This document shows, in pieces, positions 11,256 to 39,200 of a stretch of DNA of 64,000 nt (positions are counted from its first letter, which is position 1; each line of letters begins with the position of its first letter). A model generated the notes under the pieces. That model made no database searches. It worked only from the letters and a program-made list of their open reading frames with translations, and was not told the DNA's origin. The stretch spans positions 19,741,329 through 19,805,328 of the forward strand of contig NC_053418.1 of assembly GCF_016859285.1 (NCBI RefSeq), read 5' to 3'. The translations under genes were made by a program, and so were the position numbers. The DNA comes from Xiphias gladius (lineage: Eukaryota; Chordata; Actinopteri; Istiophoriformes; Xiphiidae).

Positions 11256-13416
11256 CTGGGCAATGTTAAACTATTGTTGATATGAGCCTAAAGGGACAAT
11301 TCTGGAAAACTTCATTTTTCTTATTCTAAGTAATCCTCCAGCCACCGAAACCACGGTTAACACTGGCTCTGCTACTGTTTGACCAAACATCATAGTATGT
11401 TATGAGACAAATTCGATTTGGGACTTAAGAGATAAACCAAGAGCAGAATGCAAGACACATGAAAACAAACTGTGAACAGCATTAGCTCTGCCAGGTGGGC
11501 TGTGTGACTACTGAAATATCATCCAGCAAGAAAACCACAATGACTAGGAGGGGACACAATTATCCTGTCTGAAGTTAAGCTACATTCTTATCAGCTGATT
11601 CCTGTTACAATGTTTTCCATCAGCAGGATTTGACTGAAATCAATGCTTAACATTTTATAAGGAAAAGAAAAGAGAAACCTCCATTTAAGATACAACTGGG
11701 TCAGTTTGATAAAATATGAATACAGGAAACAAAAGTGCCCCGCATGAAAACTTATCCATGTGTATTTCACATAAACATTTCAAGTCAAACCATGGGGTCG
11801 AATAGTTTTTAAATCCAGTAGTTTTTTGCTGAAGGAGCAGCTCCTCTAGACAGGAAGACTTTCAATCTCAAATGATGTAGTAATATTTATTCCATGTTGC
11901 TTTGCTGAAATAATTTTTAGAGGATATGTTTCCAGTTCTTGTTATTAATATTGGCAAAGGCACTCTAATCAAAAACTGGTGTTTGATTAACAGTTTTTAC
12001 TCATGGACCTACTTTGAAGTGTGCCATATGTTTACTCTCTTTTTCTAGATTGCACATGCAAATCACTAGACTTTAATTATGCGTTATTCTGTTTGAAATT
12101 TTTTTTTTCCATTGAGCCTTCCCTGTGCCAACAGCTTGTCCTGACCTCGACGTAACAGCACAGTTTTCTTTAGAACAGACGGATGTTCTCAGAACACAGG
12201 GCACTTCAGACAAAAAAGTTACAAGCCATTTATTCTAATTGAGTCAACAGCACCTTAATTAGACTATTTATTGTGGATCGATCCTGGTAACTTCAAGGTG
12301 TGACTAAGGCACAAACCACTGGGTCCAGCTTACAACCTCCGCTATGGCCTTGTCTTTCTCACCACTCACACTACTAATAGCCTCCTGATATGACAGTGTG
12401 GTAGGAGATATATGAATAACTAAAAGTCTTTTACTTAGATGACCACAAGCCTGGGGTCACAGAATCAACAGTGGCTTCATTACAGGAATTTTGATAGTAT
12501 AGTTTCTATCTTTGTTTCTGGGCCCATTTTGTTGGTTGGCTGTAATTTATCTTATTCCAATGGACAACTGGGCAAACACAGATAACCTGACATCATCCAC
12601 AAATATTTAAGTTGCAGCCACGATGCAGCTTGTTGTGAGGAAAACATGTCAAGCAATCAACAAAGTCACAGGTAAATGTTTTGTTGTCAATCCCTCGGAA
12701 TGAAATGAAAGCAAATTTTTCTACGCTTACCATTCCCTACTGACATTCAGCAATCACACGAGGATACATCCATCACACAAAGGGCAAAGTTACAGATTTC
12801 TGTACAGACACCTACCTCAAGAGTCCACGACCAAGGCCTATAGTACATTTTAAGGAAAGGATGTAACTCTCGCTCTTTGCCTGGAAAAACTCCACCGTTG
12901 CACATAATAATGCTATTGCTTAAATAGCTCATTCTCTGATGATAAGTAATAGGAGAAATAGCACACAGTACAGTGGATGAAGCAGGCTGGGGAACAGTGT
13001 GTCTCTTAAATTACTCTTCTATAAAATGACTCCGGGTCACCTAATTGAGGAGACTAACTGCCTGGTTTGGCCATCTACTGCCATCTAGTGCAGTGATTTG
13101 TGATTATCAGCTTCATAATGTGAACTACAAAGCCTGACTCACTGGTTTTCTCTTTCATATAACAGCCGCAAGACGTTTACTTTGATTCTGAGTTTTCAAT
13201 TACTGTCAGATTCACTGCCTCTTCTTCATCTCCACGAAATGGCTGTTGTTTCATTCTCTGCCCAGGAGAATTGCTCTGTTTCTCAGAGGCTGGATGTACA
13301 AGCACTGTAGTGGTGTATTGTTATAACTTGAAGAGCAAGAGGGGAATCTGGGTGTCTCTACTTCCTCGGGATCTGAGTAAAGGAAGTGTGATTTGGTGTA
13401 CATGCACCTACAAATC

Positions 13417-13452
13417 AGCACATTTTATATCATTAGCCCATTTTATATCATT
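13417..13452. repeat. Two-copy 18-bp tandem duplication
   Basis: AGCACATTTTATATCATT at 13417-13434 is followed immediately by the same 18 bases with one change (A to C at 13438). It is a short replication-slippage duplication upstream of got1l1 with no evident function. Confidence 0.8.
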
Positions 13453-13961
13453 ACTAATGGATTTAGACTGCAAAAGGGATGTAATTCCACAAACGAGAGG
13501 CAGGTTTGATCTCTAAAAATGCTATGGGGTCCAAAAAAAAATCATCTACTGTGTACAGAGATGGATCAGTGGATCAGTGAAAGCCATAGAAGCAGGAAAT
13601 CTTACAAAGTATGTCCAGCGGCAGCTCATGTTGAATCCAAAGAGCCCGAAACACTTGTAAAATTAAACACTGGCTCTTGACTCGCAGCCTGAGTCATTGT
13701 GTCTTGATTAATTTAAGGAGGCTACATGCCTGATGTAGGCTAATGCCACCAAAATAAACCTTACATGAGGAGCAGAGGTTTGTTTGTTTTGATTTGTCAG
13801 TGCTAGAGGCTGAAGCATATACATTTGGGACAGGCCTCGCCTTGACCAAAACTGATAACTGATCCTTTCATTTCCAGCTAGCCTACTTGATGATATAGCT
13901 CACTGTGAGGTAAAGGTAAACTCACCAGACCCACAAATTAGGGAGTGACAAACTCATCCAT

Positions 13962-14014
13962 CACCGTTGCCGGGGGGACAGTATCCAAATACATGCTGTA
14001 GCCTGGCAACGGTG
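13962..14014 (+). promoter_or_regulatory. Inverted repeat with RFX-like half sites
   Basis: CACCGTTGCC at 13962-13971 and its exact reverse complement GGCAACGGTG at 14005-14014 face each other 50-100 bases upstream of the got1l1 start codon. GTTGCC and GGCAAC are the two half sites of the X-box bound by RFX factors, which drive ciliary and testis genes. Here the halves are 33 bases apart, not 0-3, so this is not a canonical X-box. Placement just before the gene suggests a promoter element, but that is inference. Confidence 0.3.
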
Positions 14015-14063
14015 CCTAGACAAACTTGCAGCTCATGTGCTGATTTGGCTGGCTGGGTTCAAG

Positions 14064-17000
14064 ATGAGTCGACCCAGCAGTGGCCATGATGAAAAAAGGG
14101 TCAACCAAAATGGAGACCCAGGAGCTCATCTCTCAGTGTTTACCAATACACACTGCTGCGCAGTGAGTATTGGTCCTGAAACAAAACTAATGTCCGCCTT
14201 CAAGACAGACACTAAGGCCAGGAAAGTCTGCCTAGCAGGGAGAGGTGAGTCTGCTCATCTGCCTTTATTTATGACGGTTTTCTTTTTTTGTTTCGTTAAA
14301 GGTCCAAGAGGAGAGGGAGGGGGGTTTAATAGTACCCCTTCCAATTTGCAAAATTTGAACTTCAGTTAATTCTGACGATGATTTTAATAATGTCATCTGT
14401 AGTAAGAGAGTTGGGATTCCTCGCAAAAATTATGACATGTCAGAAATAAATTTGCCTCTCTCAAAAATAGGAAAGTCTGTAAAATAGCGTGAGAAATGCA
14501 TGCTGGTGTCAGTTATGTTGCTGTCATGGTACATAATCAAAAGCTATGACAGAGCATTTGGCTTCATCAGCTATAAATCAGAGCAAGAGAGTTGTAGTCC
14601 ATTTCCATTGAATTACTGACTCAATCTACGGGTTCATGGACATTTTATTTGGCATAATACTCATGAATATTTTAATGGAGAGTTCAAAGTGAACTAGAGA
14701 GAGAATTTTAGTTAAATCAATAAATACAGATGCTGTCATAGCATAATAGTTCTCCATTTATGGAGCAGCGGCTCCAGGATTTGTGTCCATGGTTTGTTTA
14801 AAAAATCCCCTGTTCGCACCAGAAAAATGCTCTTTCTTGAAATAACTGTGACCAAACTCAGTCCCAAAATCGCCCCTTTTTACACCTTATTATCTCCTTA
14901 ACGGTACAATAATTTTGTAAATCTTTACCTAGACATACCATACAAACTAGCTACTAAGACAAAAACTTCTTAAGCATATTGCCAGTAGAGGATCACTCTA
15001 CTGCACCCTACCAAATGGGCTTAAACTTTTTAACTGGTTGTTGCCACTTCTTTGTTTCTAGATGGCATGATAACTACAAATCACACATTAAAACTGAAAT
15101 GTACATTCTGTATTTAAGGACAAATTCTAATTTCTCAGTCTCAGGCTACAGTTTTCCCTCACTGTGACCTTTCTTTTCCTTTTCCAGTTCACTTTGATAT
15201 CATTATGATTTTTCACATTTTTCGATACAGTGTTTTGTGGGATGAAAAAGCTTTTTGCAGTAATTGTCTTTCACAGAGTATTACAGCGAGGAAGGGAGGA
15301 CCTTTGAACTGCGTCTTGTTAGGAAAATAAAGCAACAGTTATGCGCCGATCCCACGCTTCGCCCAGAGTATCCATCTTCTCTTGGGCTGACGGAATTCAC
15401 CAGGCGAGCCACGGAGGTTGCTTTGGGGAAGAGCTCTCGGGCTATAGTGGAGAACCGGGTAATCTCAGCTGTACACGTATACTGTAACTAATCATAGCCT
15501 AGGTATATAATTGCACCTGAGTTTGCCCAGCAACAAAGACAGAGGGATGAAGCAGAAGCTTGTAGCCAATCATCAAGTTGATCTGCCCTGTCATCACCTG
15601 GACACACTGTGTAGAGGAATCTGTAATTATTCAGTCATGGATTTACTTCCTACTTCAACCTCAGATTAAAGTAGTACAAGACCAGCACTCCAGTGTTTTA
15701 ACATCATAGTCATATTAATAACTCAACTCTTGGTGGTTCCTGACTTTTGTTCCAGGTGTTAGGTGTCCAAACACCGGGTTTTACTGCTGCTGTGCGTCTT
15801 GGGGCTGAACTCTTGAGACACTGGTACGATTTCAGTGCTGCTTGGTGCGGGCCAGTCTACCTCTCTTCTCCTTGTGATGGTAAGTGAAACCTCACCTCCT
15901 TTAAACAGCATTTAAAGACACAACCATTAGTCTATTGCCTATAAAATGTAGGTAAACATTGAATTATACTCTTGAAACATAAATAAACCACTGTAGGTGA
16001 TAACCTCAGCGTGGTGATTGCAACTACAGTGTATATGCACTACATGTTTACCTCTGCAACATATTATCAACAAGACTAGAGAATGACGCCTATGTATACC
16101 ACAAATAACATATGAATAAATGATCAGCAAACAATGGACAGTAATTGCATCCATAGCAACATGAGCTACTGTGACATGAACACAATGCGATTTCTGAGAT
16201 TTCTGACAGAAAAATGTTGGAAATGAAAATTGCATAGAGTAGAATAGAGTGTACAAAGAAGACAAAATTTGAAGGATTGCACTTCAGAAAAGGCATAGAT
16301 AGAGGATAATCAGCTATTAATACAAACAGACCTTTAGCAGACATTCACTGACAGAATTTTACACCTTCGATAAACATTACATTCCCTTTATTTTTGCAGA
16401 TGTCGATGATCTCATGGAGCTTTTGAGATAGAGGAAACCTGTGAACAGAAAAAAAAAAAAAAAGATGTGCGAGACACATTAAAATTAAGGTTAGAATGTA
16501 GTAATACAATTATTTTCAAAAAAGTATTCAACATAAAATTTAAAAAAAGAAGGGAAAAAATCATATTCACTCACAGTGGTGGCAGCATACTGTAATTACA
16601 TGCTAGGGTATCTTGAGGAGTTTGTTCTGCTTTAGGCATCTAATATAATGTTTTGTCTTGATCCATACCGCAGACTCATTGGCTGGTATCTTCCAGGCAG
16701 CAGGGATCCAAGATATCCGTGAGTATTATTACTGGGATGACGAGCAGCGGGACGTTTGTTTGGAGAAGCTTCTGGAGGATCTGGAGAGGGCTCCTGAGCA
16801 AAGTGTAGTCGTTCTGTCAGCGTCTGCCCAATACCCAACCGGAGCTGATCTCTCTCAGGATCAATGGGCCGTGCTTACACAACTCATCACGGTAACTGAC
16901 ATGCACATTAATGAGGCTAAAATGATTTTTATCAGACATGTAGCTCTTCACTCCCGCTTAAGTCATCATTTGCTGTCTCGGCACTGTTTCAACAGAGGCG

Positions 17001-19641
17001 CAGGCTTTTCCCTTTCCTCTTACTCCCTGCTCAGGCGCTCCGCTATGGAGATTTCAAGCGGGATGCCTGGCCTGTTCAGCACTGTGTATCACAGGGGATG
17101 GAGCTCCTTTGTGCTCAGTCGTTCTCCCACTGCTTTGGCCTATACGGTGAGAGAGTGATGTTGAAAAAATCATTTATTTCAAGGATTTACCTGTGTCTCT
17201 CCTATAGCCAAAGGGACTCTGCTTGTCAAAATGAGCCCACACTATAAATTAAGACTGTAATCTCAGATGTTGAATCCACCGGTGGTGGCAGAAAAATTCA
17301 GATCCTTTACTTAAGTCAAAGTACCAATACAGCAATATAAAAATGCTCCATTACAGGTAAAAGTCCTGCATGAAAAATCCCACTTAAGTACAAGTGCATA
17401 AGCATTAGCAGCAAAATGTAGTTAAAGTATTAAAGTAAAAGTACTGGTTTGGTCCATCTGACCGATAAATTATTATATCTGACATCATTAGATGATTAAT
17501 ACTGAAGCATCAGCGTCTAAGTAGCATGTTACTGTGGCAGCTGCTGGAGTTCGTGGTAGTTTGGTGAGATATGAAATCATTTGAACATTTATTGAAATTA
17601 AACCATGTGAGAAGTTTAGAGGGGAAAATGCCAATTTGGTGGAGCTGTTAACAACTGATATCTGAAATGTGACCCTGACTACACACTGTTTTTGTAAGAT
17701 GTAAGTTTGGAAAGTACAATATTGAAATTTAGTGGGGTGGAAATATAAAAGTAGTATAAAATAGAAATGCTCAAGTACCTCAAATTTGCACTTAATTACA
17801 GTATTTGAGTTAATGTACTTAATGAGTTTTACCACTGTAATCAACGCAGAGTACAACCCAGAGCTGTTCTGCTATTAAAAAATAACACGGCAAATCACTC
17901 TGAACTCAATTTTCTTTTCTTTTGTGGAGGCAGGTAGTGTTAGCCCTGCATTCAGTCGACAAGGGCAACAGCGTATTCATGTTTATCTTACTGATTGTTC
18001 GCCAGATAGTACATGTTCATAGCATCAGAGGAGCCACAGTCTCTTGAGACGTCTGTATTAGCATCATGTAACTCATTGTGACGCAGATCACAGCTTTTGG
18101 CTTGTTTCTCCATGACCTGGTGAGTATTCATTAGCCCAGAACTGAGTGATTAATTTCATTCCAAAGTGTCCCTCTTCAATTTATTTTCAGTAGCAGTTTT
18201 ATAAGAGATAGAGAGTATAACTGTACATTACTGTTGCGGGAACATATGTCTTTCTTAACACCATGCGAATCTTCTTCTTCCCATCACCAGGTGAGGCTGT
18301 AGGACATCTCCTGTGCGTCTTAAAGCAGAGCTCCCTCCTCTTATCTGTGCAGTCTCAAGCTGACAAAATAGTCAGATCACTGTGGGCCCAGTCGTCTGTA
18401 GGAGGAGCACTTGTTGTTGCCACGGTGCTCAGTAACCCAGCCCATCTTGCTGAATGGTGAGTCACGCTCCACTTGAATGAGTAAACTGGTATTTAAAAAA
18501 TGTGGCTTGGAGGCCAGCATTGCTACTGTATCAGTAGATGTCCCCGGTGATAGCTGGACTGGTCGGGCAATTTCTTTGTGCATGCAAGGCTTCAGAAGTT
18601 GAGCTGACAGTGTGCTAAGCATTTAATGGTACCAGTGACAAAATCCTCCACTTTCCAAATGCACCTTTTGCTCACTGGACATTTTGCAGGTATTGGAATT
18701 TATACTTCAGATATTATTTCCCAAATGTTGTCCACTGTGTTTCCCAGGCAGGGAGAGGTTAAACGCATCGTTGAGAGATGTATGCTGATCAGAGACATTT
18801 TGAGAGAAAAGCTGAGGCTTTTGGGTACTCCAGGCTGCTGGGACCACCTGACAAGACAAGGGGGACTCTACTGTTGCACAGGCTTGAATGGTGAGGAGCG
18901 AACGGCACAGTTTCTGCCATGTTGGACTTGTGTAGAGCTATTTTTCTAATAATCTACATCAAATAATTCACTACAAAAGCCTCTAATAACAACATGATAG
19001 AACACTTTCTGATATTCATGATTAGTTTTCTCATATCTTGTTTTTCTCTTCTCCCCTGTGTAATGCTTTGAAATTGATAACTGGCATTTACAGTACATTT
19101 TTATACTGTTTATTCATCACTTTGAACGGAGTCAAGGCCTTACACTCTGGCTGCCTTTGAACGGAATATGCAATTATTGCACTTTATACATAGTTCCAAA
19201 AGATGTTCACTCACTCACTTTATGCATGTACAGGCACAGGCCTTAACCTTAGTCAGGGTTCATCAAGCTAATATTCACGATTTTGGTGATTTGCAGGGAA
19301 CTTTTTTTTTTACAGAGGTTGATTATTTGACAGTCGATATGATTGCGAATGATATCATTATTTAGTACCAAAATGTTTTACCAGACGGACATATTCTTTA
19401 AACACTACCAGCATTCTACAATAAAGCGATGAAGCCAACACTATTATCATAAATACTTATGTGTTTTCTCTGGACCTCTTGTATTTTTTGGCCTGCTATA
19501 GATCAGCAGGTGGAATCTCTGTCAAAGAGCAGACACGTGTACCTCCTTCCCGGCGGATGTCTAAATGTGAGTGCAATCAACAGCCGTAACCTGGAATATA
19601 TAGCTGAGTCCATCCATCTGGCCCTGACCACTTCACCCTGA
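14064..19641 (+). CDS. got1l1: Aspartate aminotransferase-like protein (GOT1L1), likely catalytically inactive
   Basis: Eight exons join in phase with GT-AG borders: 14064-14244, 15277-15458, 15756-15879, 16674-16891, 16996-17146, 18291-18456, 18748-18890 and 19502-19641. They give 434 residues against about 413 in cytosolic GOT1. Fold signatures are clear: LSVF in exon 1, EYPSSLGL, LGVQTPGFTAA, DIREYYYW, VVVL-x(5)-YPTG, CAQSFS, TPGCWDH and LLPGG-x-LNVS. The ATG at 14064 has A at -3 and gives about 22 extra residues before the family's usual N-terminus. Normal family members transfer amino groups between aspartate and 2-oxoglutarate using PLP. Here the PLP lysine is histidine (SFSHCF), and the family's N194, D222, Y225, R266, R292, R386 and W140 are Y, L, A, A, L, C and D. 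The frame is uninterrupted, so I read it as a conserved non-catalytic protein. Mammalian GOT1L1 is mainly testis-expressed, and a reported aspartate racemase role for it is disputed. Confidence 0.9.
17278..17838. mobile_element. Probable hAT-type MITE in got1l1 intron 5
   Basis: The segment begins near 'GGTGGTGGCAGAA', contains the 'TACTTAAGTCAAAGTACC' type body with several AAAGTA motifs, and ends 'TTTTACCACTGT'. The ends are roughly inverted (GGTGGT against ACCACT), matching a short non-autonomous DNA transposon common in teleosts. There is no transposase frame, and I could not confirm an 8-bp target duplication. It lies wholly within the intron between 17146 and 18291. Confidence 0.45.
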
Positions 19642-22600
19642 CCACGTGACTTTTGATCAAGATCTGAAAGCAGTGTCAAGGCGGCTTTTCAGCCTCACTG
19701 AAACCCATCCACATTGAACTGTTCATATATCACATTGAAATGATCTGTCTCCAGTTTCCTGTAAGTCCTATTGCAGGTTTAGCTATTGCAAAGTGAATGC
19801 TGTTAAACATGTAGAAAAATGTGGAGAAAAATACAATTGCTTATTGGATTGTCGCCGACTTTTCATGGTAGAAGTCCAGTTATCAGTAACTGAAACAGAG
19901 ACCAGGTTGTGATGCCCTTCCACATGAAACACAAAAGAGATGTGTCCATGTGTCCTGTGTGTAGTAGTAGGTCAGCCACATTAGGTAAACCATTATGACA
20001 GCAGTGCAGTGATCCTTTTGTGAACATTTTGTTCCTTTATCTGCTATTCTCTGCATTGAAACACTGCCAGTTGCTCAAAGACGAAAGTTTGCAATTTCCA
20101 TTCTTGGTTGCATTGCCAGTTTACCAAAGCCGGGCAGTGTCCGACCCGTGTCCAACCCTAGTTGAGAGGAGGGTCAGACCCGTCTACCGATAGACCCCTG
20201 ACATAGGTTTAACCTGTGTCACTGTGTCGGTCTGACTGGGGTATTAGTCAGCTTAAGCAGTGCTAGTAGGCAGATTTTGTTACCTGTGAACAGAACCAGG
20301 CTAGCTGCCCCTCCCTGTTTTCAGTCTTGTCGCTTAAATGTATGCTAAGCTAAGATAACAGGCTGCTGGCTGTAGCTTCATATTTAACACGCAAATAGAG
20401 CGGTATCAACCTTCTCATCAAACTTTCAGCGAGAAAGTCACATTTCCTATACAACATGTGGACATGTATATGTGATTAATGTCCTGACTGGGTGTGAGTC
20501 ATTTTATTTTAAATTGACTCTTCATTGAGTTGTTCTAGTTTTAATTTTGTAAAGTCAGAGAAGGTATAGTATCTTTGTGTGGCTATATATTAGACGTTGT
20601 GAAAGCCAAAATGATCTGTAGAGGATGTCACACACCAGCACTATCTAATATAAGGAGAATCAAGCGCTTAACAGTGGCCCAGAGTTAACATTTAGAGGGA
20701 TGAGCCTCAGACAAGCAGCCATATATTGCTTACTGAACACTCAAATCAGAAAGGATGCTTCATGAATTCCTTTCGGTTACTCTGAACAGCAGTCAGAAGT
20801 CACAGATGTATTGAAAATACATGTTGTGTACACAGCAGTTAATAATCCAGCTGGGGTTACTGAGTAAATAACCTTGACTAAAACATCATCACCAACGTCT
20901 ACGCTTCTTTCAAGTGATGCATTCTTGTGCAAATATTTACCATTTTTCCATCTGTAAGATTGATGCATTTCTTTGACAGTTTTTGGTTCTTTTCAAATAT
21001 CACAGGACAGTATGACAAATGTATCTTTATCCTCATATTACACATTTCTTCTCATCAACCAGGTTCATGTGTCAGTGCAGATCTGCAATATTGATAACTA
21101 CAATCATATCTAAAGAATGAAGAATTTTTATTTGTATTGAATTATTTGGGGCCTTTACCATCACATGGTCCAAATAATATTTTATGAGCATTTCCTTTCC
21201 ACTCAACTACAAAATATTTCCAAATGATGTGAATGTATTATACAGCAAATGATTGTTCGTCCTGAAACATCAATGAGTAATGCTCTCCCCATCTTGTCAC
21301 GTCTGTGTGGCAGAAAAGGAGCGATACCAAAATGGACATTATTTTCATGTTTTGTGAAAGAAAACCAAACTTTTTTGAAAAACATACAGCTTTTATCTAA
21401 CTAACTTTATATCCTCGGGGGCCCTCCTTTAATTTGTGAGATATGCCGCCATTGTCACTACATGATGTTCATTTCTGAGAAAAAGGTTGCAACAAGGTTT
21501 TTAATGGAGGCCGTGTGCTCGCTCTTTTCATTTCAGTGACCTCGGGTGAAACACGACAATCAGCATCCACCATCATAAAGACCCTGAGCCATTAGATGCT
21601 GTCCTTTGATTTGCATCTGAGCGTGCTTACATGCACATACTTTTGGCAGGCACTTGCTCATAGCAAATGTTTCAAGTTCGATATAAGTTGTTGACATGCA
21701 TCCTAAGATTTCTCGTGCAGTTATCCCCACATACATGAATAAGGAGGATTGCCTAAATACAAATATTGCCATGGAAACTGAAGCTGCACAGACTGCAAGA
21801 ACCAAGGGAGAAAAAGTGTTTTTTTCCCTTCCAGCCAATAAAAGGATTTCCCAGAAATGATTCAGGTTTATAACAAAGAAGACTGGACCGTTTCCTAAGA
21901 ATAAATGAAAATAAACGTGCAATTGAACACAATGTTTCAAAAACTGAATTCTCAAATACTTTACATTTGCATTTCATCTGAGATCAAATTTTTAAATGAT
22001 CATCTCCAACACGGATCAGACACCAATATCCAAGATTTGGGTATGGCATGGAGTTTTAAGTCATGGCTTTACAAATGTTAATGCAGTATATACTAATGCT
22101 GATCTGTTATAACATATTTAAAATCTCTTTAGCCAGGGTTTTACTCTCTCCCTCTGATAATAATTATCAGCAGTTATCACTTTTGATTATAATGGGTTTT
22201 TGCATTGTAATGAGCCATCAAGTCATTTGGAAAGGGTTTTTACCACAACTTACAACTATCAATTCGGATCAGTTGTTCGACCGATCGCAGGGATTTTTCA
22301 AAACCCTCAAACCAAGTTCTTCAAGTATGGTACTTTTTGGCCACACACTTTGAACAGAAGTGCTGAGGAATAAGGGAGAATCAGCATCATATTTCTCAGG
22401 TTCCATGCCAGCAAATGTGTATAAAACTATGAAGCCAGTCTGAGCTGAGCTGCTCTCAATCATGTACAAAGAACAATAGATACTATGATAATACCCCCCC
22501 CCCCAACAGTCTGCTTGTTAGCAATAGTGAGATTAGACCAATAATGATGAAGGATGACTGCAGACGCACAGTATTTACGGTCATACCTGTATGAACTGGG

Positions 22601-29204: not shown

Positions 29205-31265
29205 ACTGTCTAACTTGCAATGATAAATTTATTTTCAACGTTTCACTGCTAGACTTTCACCAGGCAAATGGTTTGTGACAATGAGGAGCCATCTTAAATA
29301 GCAGTGGCTTTAGGCCTGCAACCAATCACATTACCCCATGTGAAATAGAAAGACATGAATACCAAACATCAATTTACTGTATAAAAGTTTCTCGAATCAT
29401 ACGTACAGCTAGAAAATTCAAAATATATTGTAGCAATAATACATAGTAAATTTACCCCAAAAATCTTACAAGAAATGGGTAAATTACTATAAAACGAATG
29501 CCTAAGGCCCTAAAGGCTAAACTGTATTCTCAAAAAGATACATTCCCCAAATATTACAGAACACATTTTAGATGAACCTGGAGGGATACAATTACATGGC
29601 ATATGAAAACAGCATCAGTACATAAATAGAACTCTTCATAATAAATAAATACAACAAGACCTCTCACAATTCTAATGGGCAAACACTACAGATGTTAAGT
29701 AACAATAATCAAATCTACCTCTACCTCTAAATAGATCCTGCAGGCCCCAAAGAAAAGAATTACATTCAAAAAATGCACATATGTGGTAGCTTACATTTGT
29801 TGGATGAACTTAACATAGCATATAAAAAAGTCATCACCAATCATAAATATACTTTGACCTTCCAAATTAATAAATATAATGGACATCTAGTCTAGGAAGA
29901 TTCATGCTGCATCAATGCATACATATATAAATGGACACAATCAACAGGTCACATTGGTAAATGAAGCCAATAACATACGTACTTATTCATAAGTATACAG
30001 GACTGTCTGGGGCTGGACAAGAAGTCCACAGAAAACAATGTACAGGAGATATACTGAAAATATTCAGAGTAAGGAATCACAAGAAAAAGTTACGAAGTAA
30101 TTCATCATTCAATCTTTTAAGGGCTAATGTTTGAAAAGTATAAATCCATGAAGCCTCACGCTGTTTGAGTAGTTTGTTATGCCCCCCCCCCCAATGGTAG
30201 GTGACCTGTTTGATACCAAAGAAACGTAATAAAGCGATGTCATTGCGAGCGTCATTGAAATGCAGCTGTCCCTGCTGTGCAAATCTGTTTTTCATACCCC
30301 TGGCCCTCTCCATGAAGTCTTCTATGGAATCACAGGTCTTTCTCAATCAAAAAAAGGAAGTAGGGTGAAAACTTGTAGCCAGCAACAAGGCGTTTTTGTC
30401 AGTGTCCTTCCAGTAGAGTGTTGTAATGATGGAACCCATTTTTTTCGTGACCCACATGTCAAAGAAACTCACTTTTTCATGACTGTATTTTGATGTAAAT
30501 TGCAGTAACAAATTGAGTAACAAAATTTGCCAGTTCACCTGAACTTCCATCATATATACAGACGATGTCATCAATGAATCTGTACCATTTTATAATCTTA
30601 GACAGATGATTGTTCTTGACTGAAGACAAAATTTCTCCCAAAAAAAACTACAGATAAATTAGCATAATCAGGTGCACAATGGTGCCCATGCTCCTGCTTG
30701 AAAATATAAATCATTTTCAAAACTGAAATGGTTGTATTTCATAACAAATTTGGCTTAGTCAATGATAGGCTGGTTAGGAAGGATGGATGTGTTGTTGCGG
30801 TCTTGTAAATAAAAACTTAAGGTCTCCAAACCACCTTCATGGGGTATGTTAGTATGATGGCTCGTGATATCAGGAGTCAGCTGAAAGATGGCATGAAATT
30901 TTATCAATGAAATCACTACTGTCCTTGATGTAGACTGGCAGGGTGTGGAGGGGGGCTTAATGAAGAAGTCCACAAAGTTTATGTGCCACAATGGGACGGC
31001 CTGGAGGGTTGGTTAGGGATTTATGTACTTTAGCCAAAGTGTATATTATAGGCCGTGTAGGGAGCTTGCAATATAGAAAATCAAGTTCTGATTCCGAAAT
31101 CCAACCTCTCTTTTTAGCATCTTCAAGATAAGAAGGTATTTCCTGTTGAAAAGAAATGGTGGGGTCTGGCATTTGACAATTTAGAGAGAATTTCATGCCT
31201 ATATTTCTCAGCATCTAGGATATAGATACCACCTCCTTTATCAGCTGGTTTGATGACAATGGCTT
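29205..31265 (-). mobile_element. Decayed Penelope-like retroelement
   Basis: On the minus strand, reading from about 31262 downward, broken frames show Penelope-type reverse transcriptase motifs in the right order. They are IVIKPADKGGG (near 31260-31230), YTLAKVHKSLTNPPGRPIV (near 31040-30980), a degenerate HTNIPHEGG block (near 30850-30830) and the catalytic RFIDD at 30567-30581. MKNRFAQQG follows at about 30290. A jump then leads to the element's C-terminal segment (RFFGIKQV and LLKQREASWIYT, about 30220-30140), which normally follows a GIY-YIG nuclease domain. That nuclease core is missing. Frames shift several times, so the copy is dead. The left end carries a terminal-type sequence, AAACGTTGAAAATAAATTT, read on the minus strand near 29250-29230. 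Outer limits are approximate. Confidence 0.8.
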
Positions 31266-33222: not shown

Positions 33223-36200
33223 TTACACTGGCTTGGCAGGGCTAAGGGCTTGCAGGATACTGGGTTTTTCCTCTATGACGCGGAGCAGCAGGTTGTCGAT
33301 GTACTCTTCGAGCTCAACGATCTTGGCGTCCTTCCTGGACAGGTCTGTTTGCTGTTTCACCACCAGTGTGATCAGCTCTTCCTGGGTCAGCTGAGAATAG
33401 GGTCCACTTTGACCTGAGTCTGCCACCTGAGGGGCATGCAAAAAGTTAATGCAGCATATACCATCTAAACATTTGATTAATTTAATTAAGTACATATTGA
33501 ACTGTTAAGAGCTCTTTGGTTTATCCGCAGATAGAATAAACTCACGAACGCTTTTTCAGAGAATAAAAAAAAAAGAAATAAAAAAAATCATCTCATTATG
33601 TCTTACTTACTTAGTTTTCCACAGCTCTCAGCCACATCTTTTTATCAGCAGATGGAGTTTTTCTTAAGTTATTGAAAACTGAGAAAAAAACTCCTTCCGC
33701 TGAGTCGAAAAATGTGGCAAGTGGACTTTTTTGTGAAGATTTTTTTTTTTAATCAAACTGCTATTTTCAAGGTCAAAAATTAAACTCATTACATAACAAT
33801 ATTTTCAGAGTTTTCAAATGTGAAAAATCATTCACTCCAACTGCAACTGACATTTTTTTCATGGATTTAATTTTTAAATTCCATTAATATTTCTTTGGAT
33901 TTACTCAAAAAAGCACTACTTGTAAATATGTAAAATGTAGATTTTGTTGCAGGGTGAAAAGAGATTTTATGTAATGCATCCCAGAGTTCCTCCAGCAGGA
34001 AAATCCAATTAACTTGGCGTGTGGGCACATGTCAAATCAAGTCTTTTGGTCTCAGTGTGTTATTTATGTCATGATGGTACCTTAATCTTCCCCAGTGTGC
34101 TGTCCCGGACCTTTATCTCTTTCACAGCTTGGGTGCTGGTGGCATGCTGGCTCTCAACTGAGGTCAGGGGCTTCACGGGATGAGGCCTGTAAAGAAAAAC
34201 CACACATTATTATAAAGCCCTCAGAAAGATCACTCCACGTACAACAATATATACAGAAACTTCACAGAAAATAATTTTAAAAAATAAATATTATAAATAG
34301 GAATTAAAGATTAAACGATTTAATCTAGTATTTTGCAGATCTTCCAAATCACTCCACTGTGATCTACGTGCAATACTCAGAATTAAACTCAAAATAAGGA
34401 AAGTAAACCAAGAAATCACAAGCTTTCAAAATAGTCAAACCCAAGGTAAATCCCAACACCTTACAATACAACAGCATCAGCCATACGCAAATCTAGATAA
34501 ACAGTCCACAGAAGCATTCTTTGTAAGTGGCCTCTTTAATCTCACCTGCGTGGCGTTGAGGCTAGCCCACCTCCATTGCTAATCTGAGCATTGACAGGCT
34601 GAACCTCAGACGGTGAAACCCATGCTCGCATTAGTGTCGTCTTTCCCAAAGACAAACCTCCTGCTGGTTCCTCCGTAATTACCTGGAGGGGATCTGAGGA
34701 AGTGAAAGCGTAGGGCGCAGTAAAAGTCTCAGCTCCAAATGGATCCTCTCCTCCATAAAAATTGCTTTGTGTTTTTAAATCAACTTGATGCTGAAGTGTT
34801 ACAGACTCATTCATGACATCGCTTGTGGGGAGGCTTTGTGTGCCTTTATTATCTGAGGGAGTTTTTGGCGTAAGAATCTGTTTTTGTCTCTGCGAATTCC
34901 TTCTTTGGAAAACAGAACTGACTTGTTTTGAATCATCATCTTTTTTCCTGTGTTCACTGTGTTTGTCTGAATCACTGCCATTAAAAATAGCAAAGGAATC
35001 TGTTGGCTCATCTTCACTAAAAATTTTATAAAGATCATCTGCCGTCATTCCCCGATCGTCAGGCTTCTGTTCTTTCTGTATGTTGCCAGTAAAGAGGTCG
35101 CCGACTTCTTGCTTCTGCTTCACCTGTGTCCATGGGCCTTTGGAAAGAAACTCAGTACTGGGGAATGGGTCAAACTCTGAAAAGTTCTCCTTTGTCTGCC
35201 CGCCCTTTTTGTCCAAGCTGCTCACACTTTGACTAAATAACTTTTGGGTGTCACTGTTCATATTTTTGTCCGGTGTCACAGCAGAATCTTCTTGCTGTGT
35301 TGGCTCTTTGCCGTTAACCCTCCGTCTGGGTTTGGTTGTTGGCGCTTCTTTGTTCATGGAGAACTGCACTTCCCTTTGTTCATCTGCTGGAGCTGTATCC
35401 ATGTGGCTAGTTGGGCTGGGTACATGTGTTACTGCAGGAGGTGGGTGCAACACCTTCTTTGCTCCATCCATTGACATCCCGGAGAGACTTTCTCTGCTTG
35501 AGATGTCAGTGTTTACAGGTCCTGGGATTGCAGATAGATTAGGCCTCATGACAGATTGCTCAGCAATGTTCTGGCTTTGTCTTTGACTAGAATCTGCTAC
35601 TGACTGAGGGTGCTGAGATGTGACTGGTTTGGGGGGAGCTGGAGCAGCTACTTTTTTTGATGACATAGGTTTGGTCTCCTGACTTTGTGTTTGATGATAC
35701 CTCATAGCAGGACTCTGTTGTGAGATGGAAGACCTAGGACTTGGTTCATGCTCCCCTGGGCCATCCACACTCATCTCTGGGCCAATAAATTCAGGTGGAG
35801 TGTCCCTGTGTCTCTGACTGACCTCAGCGATTATATGATCCCATCGAGTGTGCCCTTGCACTCCATGCCTTTTCTGTGGATAGAGGGTTTCATAATCAGG
35901 AAGTGGAAGAGACGTTTTTTTGTCATGTTGTGATCCATCTGCTTCTACATATGCAGGGTTCTTGATCTCTCTGACAGGAACGTGATTTCCTCCAATTTGG
36001 GTTCCATGTACATGATACCGAGGTGGCAGGGGGGCTTTTCTCTTCTTCTCCGCCATGGTGGTTGAAGATCCCAAAGATTCCACCGATGACAAATTCTCTG
36101 TGCTGCAACAGGGCAAACCAGACTGGTTTTGACTTATGTTTGGCGGAGCCAAGGATGAGTGGAGGTTGGAGAAATTATCAGGGGACTCAGATGTGACACT

Positions 36201-39200
36201 ACAGAGGTTGGACTCAGATGTGGCTGGGGAAGGACACAGCTGACTGTGGGTTTGGCAGTCAGCGGGTTCACACTTCAGAGATTGAGCCAATCTGCCAAGG
36301 AGTGAAAACAAAGGCCTACAGGTCAGTGTGACCATCACATCACCTAAAGTCACTTCCACCAATGTACAACCCGTCACCAATTTAACCAGCGTCTCGCATG
36401 TCAACAAGTTGGTCAACAAAAACTATTCAATCCCCGTTTACAACCTCACATTAATGTTAACAATGGGATACAAAACAATTTATCCTAAATCTTATACAAC
36501 TGAGAACAAATCTGTGATCTGTGACAACAAACTTCATTGTATCACAGTTATGCACTAGAAAAGGCTCCCATTCAATATGACAAAATCCTTTGGTTATAAA
36601 ATGGTCCACTGTTCAATGTCAATGGCCAAACTAAAGACAGAACTTGATATTCACATGTCTTTCAATTACATTTTCTGTTTTTAGCTGTGACTTTCTCACA
36701 TTGAGAAATTTCAACCTTCCAACACGTAAAGACTACAATGTGACATTTCTGCTTTAAGATTTTGCCACTTAGATCATCCTAGGTAACCCAAAGTGGGATT
36801 AAAATATAACAAAATATATATAACAACTTAATACAAACAACTTTAAATGCGTTGTCTAGTATCTGCCATCTAGCAAACCTCCTTAAAAATAAGGATTACT
36901 GCAACATCACTGCCAATAGCGAGCACAAGCCCCTTACAGTTATGATCCAAAAATAAATAATCCAGTCCAATCCACTTCAGAAACAACTTTTAAAAAAAAT
37001 ATAAAAACAGAATCCAATCACCCAAGACAGCTACATAGAAAGTCACACTGTGGCTCAGTCACTCCTTATGAGCTCTGGTCAGTCCACAACCTGCCCCACA
37101 ACATCTTCACAAACACTTGCCACACCCAGATTCTCATCTCTACAGAGACCAAACAGGTCAAACAGGTCCGTCATCCACTGGATGCAATTCAAAGTTTTGG
37201 CCAGACACAAGGTTGAGTCAACATGAACAGAGACAGGATGGAAAGTTGTGAGTTTCAGTGTGGACAGACATGGTGTAGGATAAAAATTAATAACCAGAAA
37301 TATGTGTTATGTTTTCTTAAATAACATTTGTAACTGATATGTGCCTCTTACTTGTGCCTGGATAGTAATGCACATACCACCAAAAAGGTTACGGAATGTG
37401 CGGGCACGGCTGTGGCCCCATTCATCAAATTCCAGTCACACAAGTCTAAGAATAGTGTGACTATAAGCAACAAATAGCATGCCAAGCATCACAACAGTGA
37501 TTTAACAACAGCATTATTACATAGCCGCAACTTGTTAAGAGTATAAAATGCAACCAAATGAGAAGAAGGCCTACCTGGGTTTGACTGCAGACACTTTAGC
37601 CGTGCGGTTGAGGAAGACCATGGCAGAGGGGGTTTGTGGGTTGCGGCTGGATATTTGATGATCAGCTTTGCTTTCATTACTGCTAATTGTAGGATCTAAA
37701 CTGAGGGGAATGTCCACAAAGGGGTTGGTGGAATGGTGGGAGATCGGTTGATCAGGATCTCCTGAGTCACTGCGAGGGGCTGGTGTAGGTAACTCCTCTT
37801 CAGTGTGTTGCTGAACCTCCTCTTTTTTCTCCTCCTTCTTTCTGATCATTCCAAAAAGAGTCGACAGCCTGTCACTCATGGAGGCCTCCTCCTGTCGTTT
37901 CTGCTCCTCTACTTTGCGACGCTCCTCCTCAAACCTCTGATTCTCTGCTGCTTCCAGTATCCTGCGCTCTTCCTCTTGCTTTCTTTTCTCTTCTTCCTCC
38001 TCCTTCTGTTTCTTACTCCTTGCTTCATCCTCGAGGAAGTGTCTCTTCCTCTCCTGTTCTTCTCGGTATCTGAGCTCCTCTTCCTCCTGCAGTCTCTTGG
38101 CCTCTGCTCTGTATTTCTCCTCTTCCTCCAGCCTCTTTGCTTCTGCTCTGCGCCTTTCTTCTGCCTGCCTTCTCTCCTCCTCCTCTTGATGGCGCTGTTG
38201 CTCCATTATGGCTCTATCTGTAGACTCACGCCTGTAGGTGGGGACAGGTACACTTTTAAAGGAATCTGCAGAGACATCAGAGGTGTGTTTGCGGACATCC
38301 TCCACAGAGCCTTGGCCTGAGCTGTTCAGACTGAGTGTAGATCCACTCTTGGGCTCTGCCTCCTCTGTGTACACATGGCTGCCGTTGATGCACAGGTTGT
38401 TCAGATCACTGTTGCTCTGCTTGGAGCGACCCAGTAGGGAGAAAGGACCCTGAGAGACCTTGCTGTCAGAGCTGCCTGTCCGCTTGTGTCCCAGGAATTT
38501 GAATTTCTTCTTAACTGTGGGAGCAGAGAAAGTGAAGCCATATGTCATTGTTGCCATGCAAAACCCCATTATTTAACTTGCACTGTGCAGCACACTAAAG
38601 ACAACTGTCCACATACAGTACACAAAGAGTACAGAAAGGTCAAGTTACCCTCAGGAGAGTCTATGTTCAGGCCAGATGAGCGGCTGCCACTGAGAGATGA
38701 GTTCTTCTCGGGAAGAGTCCCCAATGTAGACATGGACTGCGAGATGTTACGATGCAAGTTTGATTTGGGGGCAAAGAGGGTTTTGAGCTTTGATTTCTTT
38801 TTCGCCCCTGGAGACTGATTGAGTGACTGTGCATCAGCCTCTCCCTCACTGTCAGTGAGGACCTGGCTGACAGATGGAACAATAGCTGAAGCCGAGTCAG
38901 AGAAGCCATCCTTTTTCTTCCCACGGACTTTATCTTTCAGCTTGGAGATTCGGGAGCGTGGTTTGTCCTGTATAGAAAGGTCAAACATGCTAGCCGACAT
39001 GTTGTTTCTCATAAACTGTATATCCAGAAACACCTCCCCTCGCGCCTTGTCCTCTTTTCCAGTCTTGTCCACCAGCTTGAACCACCTGCAAATGACAGAA
39101 AAAAATTAATCAGATGTTTAAAACAGAATTTTTGAAAGCTGAGAGAAATTTTCTTTAGAAATAATGATAGACATAAAACTTTGACATTTTACATAGTTTC

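Follow-up and report, generated by a model that had tools for sequence, protein, structure and literature searches.

Mouse GOT1L1 is a degenerate relative of the cytosolic aspartate aminotransferase GOT1, and since a report of 2010 it has been disputed whether the protein acts as an aspartate racemase, as a weak transaminase or as neither of them (PMC4282708). Its mRNA is found in the testis, in spermatocytes and sperm, and no racemase activity was seen (PMC4282708). Soluble His-tagged GOT1L1 from E. coli was scarce in the hands of two groups (PMC4282708, PMC9283133). In the central apparatus of mouse sperm, GOT1L1 has been tentatively modelled in the C1b projection together with SPEF2, CFAP69, LRGUK and LRRD1 (PMC12297659), and a later preprint retains it in its definition of C1b (PMC12642653). 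The PDB entry 9ijj contains six GOT1L1 chains. The gene described here is the got1l1 of Xiphias gladius, which lies at 14064–19641 on the plus strand of a stretch of 64,000 nucleotides (NC_053418.1, positions 19,741,329 to 19,805,328; hereafter the window). With a probability of about 60%, we read it as an ortholog of GOT1L1 that encodes a pseudo-transaminase, is kept by selection, most likely as an axonemal subunit of C1b, and is switched on by RFX factors.

The got1l1 gene consists of eight exons separated by GT...AG introns, and its spliced reading frame is open for 434 residues and a stop codon. The start codon, the stop codon and all 14 splice dinucleotides are intact, and a spliced protein-to-genome aligner written for the present analysis returned the identical seven junctions with human GOT1 as its only query. 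The product contains a single Pfam family, PF00155 (aminotransferase class I/II; 108.3 bits against a cut-off of 19.7). It aligns without a gap over 391 residues with the PDB chains of GOT1 taken to be human and chicken, with 175/391 (45%) and 173/391 residues identical, respectively. A reading made earlier from the sequence alone had described eight GT–AG exons without a frameshift or stop and a gap-free alignment with the cytosolic enzyme, and both descriptions agree with the present model. The N-terminal arm carries the motif LSVF in the fish protein and in mouse GOT1L1, where GOT1 has SVF. Ahead of this motif there are 22 residues in the fish protein (14064–14129) and three in the mouse protein.

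The fold family is retained but the active site is largely lost. The residue numbering is that of the pig cytosolic enzyme; it is anchored on K258 and agrees with the position of R386 in the SGR motif. Seventeen residues are counted here as contacting cofactor or substrate, following the enzyme literature, and all 17 are invariant in eight aligned catalytic chains (four GOT1 and four GOT2). The fish protein differs at 13 of them, and the losses are spread over every exon except exon 2. Exon 1 (14064–14244) contains the start codon, the 22 residues and the LSVF motif, and ends one base into codon 39, just after residue 38 (G38R). Exon 2 (15277–15458) keeps Y70, and exon 3 (15756–15879) keeps T109 and carries G108F and W140D. 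H143L, H189S and N194Y are found in exon 4 (16674–16891). In exon 5 (16996–17146) the motif SFSK is replaced by SFSH, giving K258H beside a retained S255, together with D222L and Y225A. Exon 6 (18291–18456) carries R266A and S296A and keeps R292, exon 7 (18748–18890) carries F360Y, and exon 8 (19502–19641) carries R386C and the stop codon.

The four retained residues are therefore Y70, T109, S255 and R292. K258 is the lysine that forms the Schiff base with pyridoxal phosphate (PLP); D222, Y225, R266 and N194 hold the cofactor, and these four read L, A, A and Y, respectively, in the fish protein. The pair of substrate arginines is broken by the change of R386 to cysteine, though R292 is kept. 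The sequence-only reading had noticed the SFSH motif, the histidine codon of which (CAC) is at 17128–17130, and had listed ten substitutions. Nine of these stand (W140D, H143L, H189S, N194Y, D222L, Y225A, K258H, R266A and R386C), whereas a supposed change of R292 to leucine does not. R314 of the fish protein, in IVRSLW, matches the arginine of human IVRITW, and the arginine-to-leucine change is that of R304 (GAR/GAL), the claim reflecting a shift. The substitutions G38R, G108F, S296A and F360Y were not in that list.

The loss is concentrated at the active site. The fish protein keeps 4/17 of the cofactor and substrate residues and 83/133 of the other residues that are invariant in the eight catalytic chains (Fisher p = 0.0033). 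Because no PLP internal aldimine can be formed and most cofactor and substrate residues are gone, the got1l1 product, as judged from its sequence, is a pseudo-transaminase of the aminotransferase fold family. The protein is very probably non-enzymatic, and the gene is best classed as an ortholog of GOT1L1 that falls outside the definition of an aspartate aminotransferase.

Despite this loss, got1l1 has been under long-term constraint. A codon model covering 383 of the 391 aligned codons of got1l1, two GOT1 genes and a GOT2 gene gave a ratio of nonsynonymous to synonymous substitution rates (dN/dS) of 0.071 for the got1l1 branch against 0.039 for the remaining branches, and a value of 1 on the got1l1 branch is rejected (2dlnL 16.4, p = 5e-5, where 2dlnL is twice the difference in log-likelihood). 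The earlier suggestion of selection for a non-enzymatic role is supported by this ratio of 0.07, by the preferential loss of the active site (p = 0.003) and by the two GOT1 genes that remain with their sites intact.

These GOT1 genes were found in a search of the genome (690.8 Mb in 1298 contigs). Intact copies are present on contigs C11 and C15, with 301/391 and 303/391 residues identical to human GOT1, and both of them, as well as the GOT2 gene on C1, retain K258, D222, R266, R292 and R386. The genome therefore holds at least two GOT1 genes and one GOT2 gene with the listed site residues intact. The C11 and C15 genes (loci L026 and L027) are complete, are identical to each other at 328/391 residues, and presumably stem from the teleost genome duplication. 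The introns of got1l1, given as residue and phase, are at 39.1, 100.0, 141.1, 214.0, 264.1, 319.2 and 367.1. Because all seven match both GOT1 genes in place and phase, got1l1 is, from its exon structure, an old duplicate of GOT1 made at the DNA level, and an origin as a retrocopy is rejected on the same 7/7 introns. An eighth intron, 179.0, is kept in both GOT1 genes and in the GOT2 gene and is missing from got1l1, where its site is covered by exon 4.

The closest described counterpart, the mouse GOT1L1 chain of PDB 9ijj, is 37% identical to the fish protein over 382 aligned residues and is encoded in the same chromosomal block. Both proteins are changed at G38, G108, W140, H143, Y225, R266, S296 and F360. 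K258, D222, N194 and R386 are kept in mouse and lost in the fish, whereas R292 is lost in mouse and kept in the fish. The decay of the active site thus appears to be partly parallel in the two lineages. If the genes are orthologs, the ancestor would most simply still have had K258, D222, N194, R386 and R292, and the loss of the lysine would belong to the fish line. The sequence-only reading had credited mammalian GOT1L1 with a retained lysine, correctly so for this mouse chain. Its view that the fish copy is further along is too simple, since the mouse has lost an R292 that the fish keeps. The fish copy is a clearer case of a pseudo-transaminase than the mouse one. At the 265 sites that are invariant in GOT1 and aligned in both proteins, 88 residues are kept by both, where 67.7 are expected if the two were independent; 85 are changed in both, 19 of them to the identical residue (including A224P). 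Twenty-nine residues are common to fish got1l1 and mouse GOT1L1 and occur in none of the five catalytic chains counted.

The neighbouring genes argue for orthology. An uninterrupted frame at 963–2285 on the plus strand encodes a beta-adrenoceptor, which matches beta-1 chains best and beta-3 chains next, its subtype being assigned from synteny. A receptor at about 25.8–27.8 kb, also on the plus strand, has the prolactin-releasing peptide receptor as its best PDB match. The domains of an ADGRA2-like adhesion receptor (LRRCT, Ig, HRM and GPS, the Ig match falling under the Pfam cut-off) are found at 50.5–54.5 kb on the minus strand. In a synteny study of the regions around npm2b in human, mouse, alligator, Xenopus, coelacanth, gar and zebrafish, the common loci include gpr124, prlhr, got1l1 and adrb3 (PMC6233590). 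A human gene table gives ADGRA2 as forward and GOT1L1 and ADRB3 as reverse, and the relative orientation of the three genes in the window is the same (PMC7598661). The gene thus adjoins ADRB3- and ADGRA2 (GPR124)-type genes with PRLHR, as GOT1L1 does, and from this synteny it is probably orthologous to GOT1L1.

Taken together, these results are consistent with the following course. An old DNA-level duplication of the cytosolic aspartate aminotransferase would have given rise to GOT1L1, and selection would have preserved the product, most likely as a structural component of the axoneme of sperm (or of motile cilia). By analogy with the model of mouse GOT1L1, the fish protein would sit in C1b of the central apparatus, and for a structural part of C1b a pseudo-transaminase would be expected. 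The sperm central apparatus, a place offered by the literature and not named in the sequence-only reading, is more specific than the dimer partner which that reading proposed. Similarly, C1b of Chlamydomonas contains enolase and HSP70A, a metabolic protein and a chaperone as parts of the axoneme. Their families are unrelated to GOT1L1, and according to the mouse study they are absent in mouse while GOT1L1 is absent from the Chlamydomonas structure (PMC12297659).

RFX factors may switch got1l1 on with the ciliary programme. The sequence GTAGCCTGGCAAC at 13998..14010 on the plus strand, which ends 53 bp before the ATG, is an exact match (GTNRCC N1 RGYAAC) to the X-box consensus GTNRCC(0-3N)RGYAAC (PMC5752003; also PMC10530576), and is a candidate site on which RFX could act. 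Three X-box matches are found in the window, against a mean of 0.76 over 100 simulated windows; those at 30375 and 48388 are unconnected to a known start codon. Six further stretches of the genome (L026–L031) contain one match between them (L027 at 2836, minus strand), which is away from start codons, and there is none in L026, including about 0.9 kb ahead of the first modelled exon of the C11 GOT1. The promoter of the C15 GOT1 lies outside the stretch that was scanned. The gene of the C1b scaffold, Spef2, is among the RFX2-regulated flagellar genes of mouse testis, and the main text of that report does not mention Got1l1 (PMC4745085).

Several observations weigh against this reading. Got1l1 knockout mice are viable and fertile, and the mouse protein from HEK293T cells had some L-aspartate aminotransferase activity (PMC4282708), given which mammalian GOT1L1 may not be dead as an enzyme. 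The concentrated loss of site residues is not shown in mouse GOT1L1 (6/17 against 72/133, p = 0.20). The assignment in C1b is uncertain according to its authors, since GOT1 and GOT2 have a similar appearance in the map (PMC12297659), and zebrafish got1l1 is listed in a gene table of exposed embryos, which is not a sperm-only context. In a protein tree of ten rows, fish got1l1 and mouse GOT1L1 are joined at 90/91; the value is unstarred, a long-branch warning applies, and the fish row is flagged for odd composition. A tree constrained to a fish-specific duplication is 5.8 log units worse and is not rejected (p-AU 0.071, from the approximately unbiased test); one that places fish got1l1 with the four GOT1 chains gives a p-AU of 0.125. 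When either fish got1l1 or mouse GOT1L1 is removed, the remaining one falls in an unresolved fork with GOT1. The simulated rate corresponds to about 0.0024 X-boxes per 200 bp, which is not a clean test as the site was noticed after the sequence had been read. Finally, a single dN/dS for got1l1 and the background is not rejected (p = 0.43), and with dS saturated the ratio is rough, averaged over a very long branch and silent on recent times.

This last point bears on the possibility that got1l1 was constrained until recently and has since been relaxed, its frame being still unbroken. Such early decay would fit a constraint that is measured only over the whole branch, and would also fit the fertile knockout mice (PMC4282708). 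The intact frame, start, stop and 14 splice dinucleotides speak against it, however. Of the point changes in the coding sequence 4.4% give a stop codon, and the chance that the gene would be intact after 3% neutral divergence is about 0.002 when stops, assumed indels and splice sites are counted (with an indel rate of 0.12 per substitution, 80% of them frame-breaking) or 0.18 for stops alone. Furthermore, the loss of 13 active-site residues needs a long time, and other invariant residues were kept more often, so that we regard early decay as unlikely. About as doubtful is a role as a cytosolic, non-catalytic partner that binds to an active subunit of GOT1 as a pair and modulates it. Y70, R292 and S296 reach into the site of the neighbouring subunit, and the retention of Y70, R292 and the LSVF arm motif by a protein that has lost its own pocket would suit a partner of this kind. 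S296 is lost, though, about 55% of the aligned residues differ from GOT1, and R292 is lost in mouse, with which the role would therefore not be shared.

The replacement of the lysine by histidine also recalls ColD and E1, PLP-dependent sugar dehydratases with a histidine at the lysine position, and got1l1 could be imagined as an enzyme with histidine as its active-site base. In proteins of that type the cofactor site is kept, whereas here D222, R266 and N194 are lost and, with them, Y225, W140 and G108, which likewise help to hold the cofactor; we consider such an enzyme very improbable. Least probable of all is a mistake in the assembly, or an alternative exon that escaped notice and supplies the lysine, for which it can be said that the gene model rests on DNA. 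A single base error would not be sufficient to produce SFSH because CAC is at least two changes away from AAA or AAG, and the 13 lost residues lie over seven exons. When the window was searched by tblastn (E up to 10) with three GOT1 proteins (the human one and the two of the fish) and with the lysine exon by itself, the known exons were recovered and every further match had E >= 0.66. Two S-[FYL]-[AS]-K strings occur in 13001–21000: an in-frame SLSK in exon 8, which is off the lysine position, and a second string that reads on the other strand. Neither scan gave an alternative lysine exon.

The preferred reading, a constrained pseudo-transaminase, probably of the axoneme, makes fish got1l1 a natural experiment: the protein has been retained although its chemistry is lost. 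An ortholog that is unable to form the PLP Schiff base and has yet been constrained argues against catalysis as the conserved role of GOT1L1. It is also an independent ground for preferring GOT1L1 to GOT1 or GOT2 in the C1b density of sperm. A wider possibility, offered tentatively, is that in bony vertebrates as a whole GOT1L1 is a structural pseudo-transaminase of the flagellar central apparatus, with a PLP site that was no longer needed from the common ancestor onwards and was emptied differently in fish and mammals, the lysine being lost outright in fish. If so, the C1b density of mouse would be GOT1L1, not GOT1 or GOT2, the question of D-aspartate would be closed for GOT1L1, and the emptied pocket may hold a partner. 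A literature search, which most subscription journals lie outside, returned no paper with both GOT1L1 and 'pseudoenzyme', and among the literature on GOT1L1 with zebrafish or teleost there was no title about its active site.

The 17 own-genome matches of got1l1 (from 26 candidates scored) comprise the eight window exons and nine matches in the GOT1 and GOT2 genes, four on C11, four on C15 and one on C1, and there is no second got1l1 copy among them. A broad search with PF00155 gave ten matches, for which 9/48 candidates were scored. Six stretches were modelled, and matches on C8 and at 18.67 Mb of C11 were left out. Three of the stretches, L029–L031 (C18, C18 and C21), gave no GOT model (scores of 55–67 against 832–1537) and did not enter the residue comparisons or the tree; the genome may contain further GOT2-like or other transaminase genes. 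A pattern scan of contigs of prokaryote genomes for relatives gave 14 matching stretches with no relative among them.

Between the prolactin-releasing peptide receptor-like and ADGRA2-like genes, long reading frames without a Pfam match extend over 34545–39105 on the minus strand, and stretches of their translation resemble RAB11FIP1. Such a RAB11FIP1-like gene would be opposite in strand to got1l1, whereas both are reverse in the human table (PMC7598661), hinting at a local inversion.

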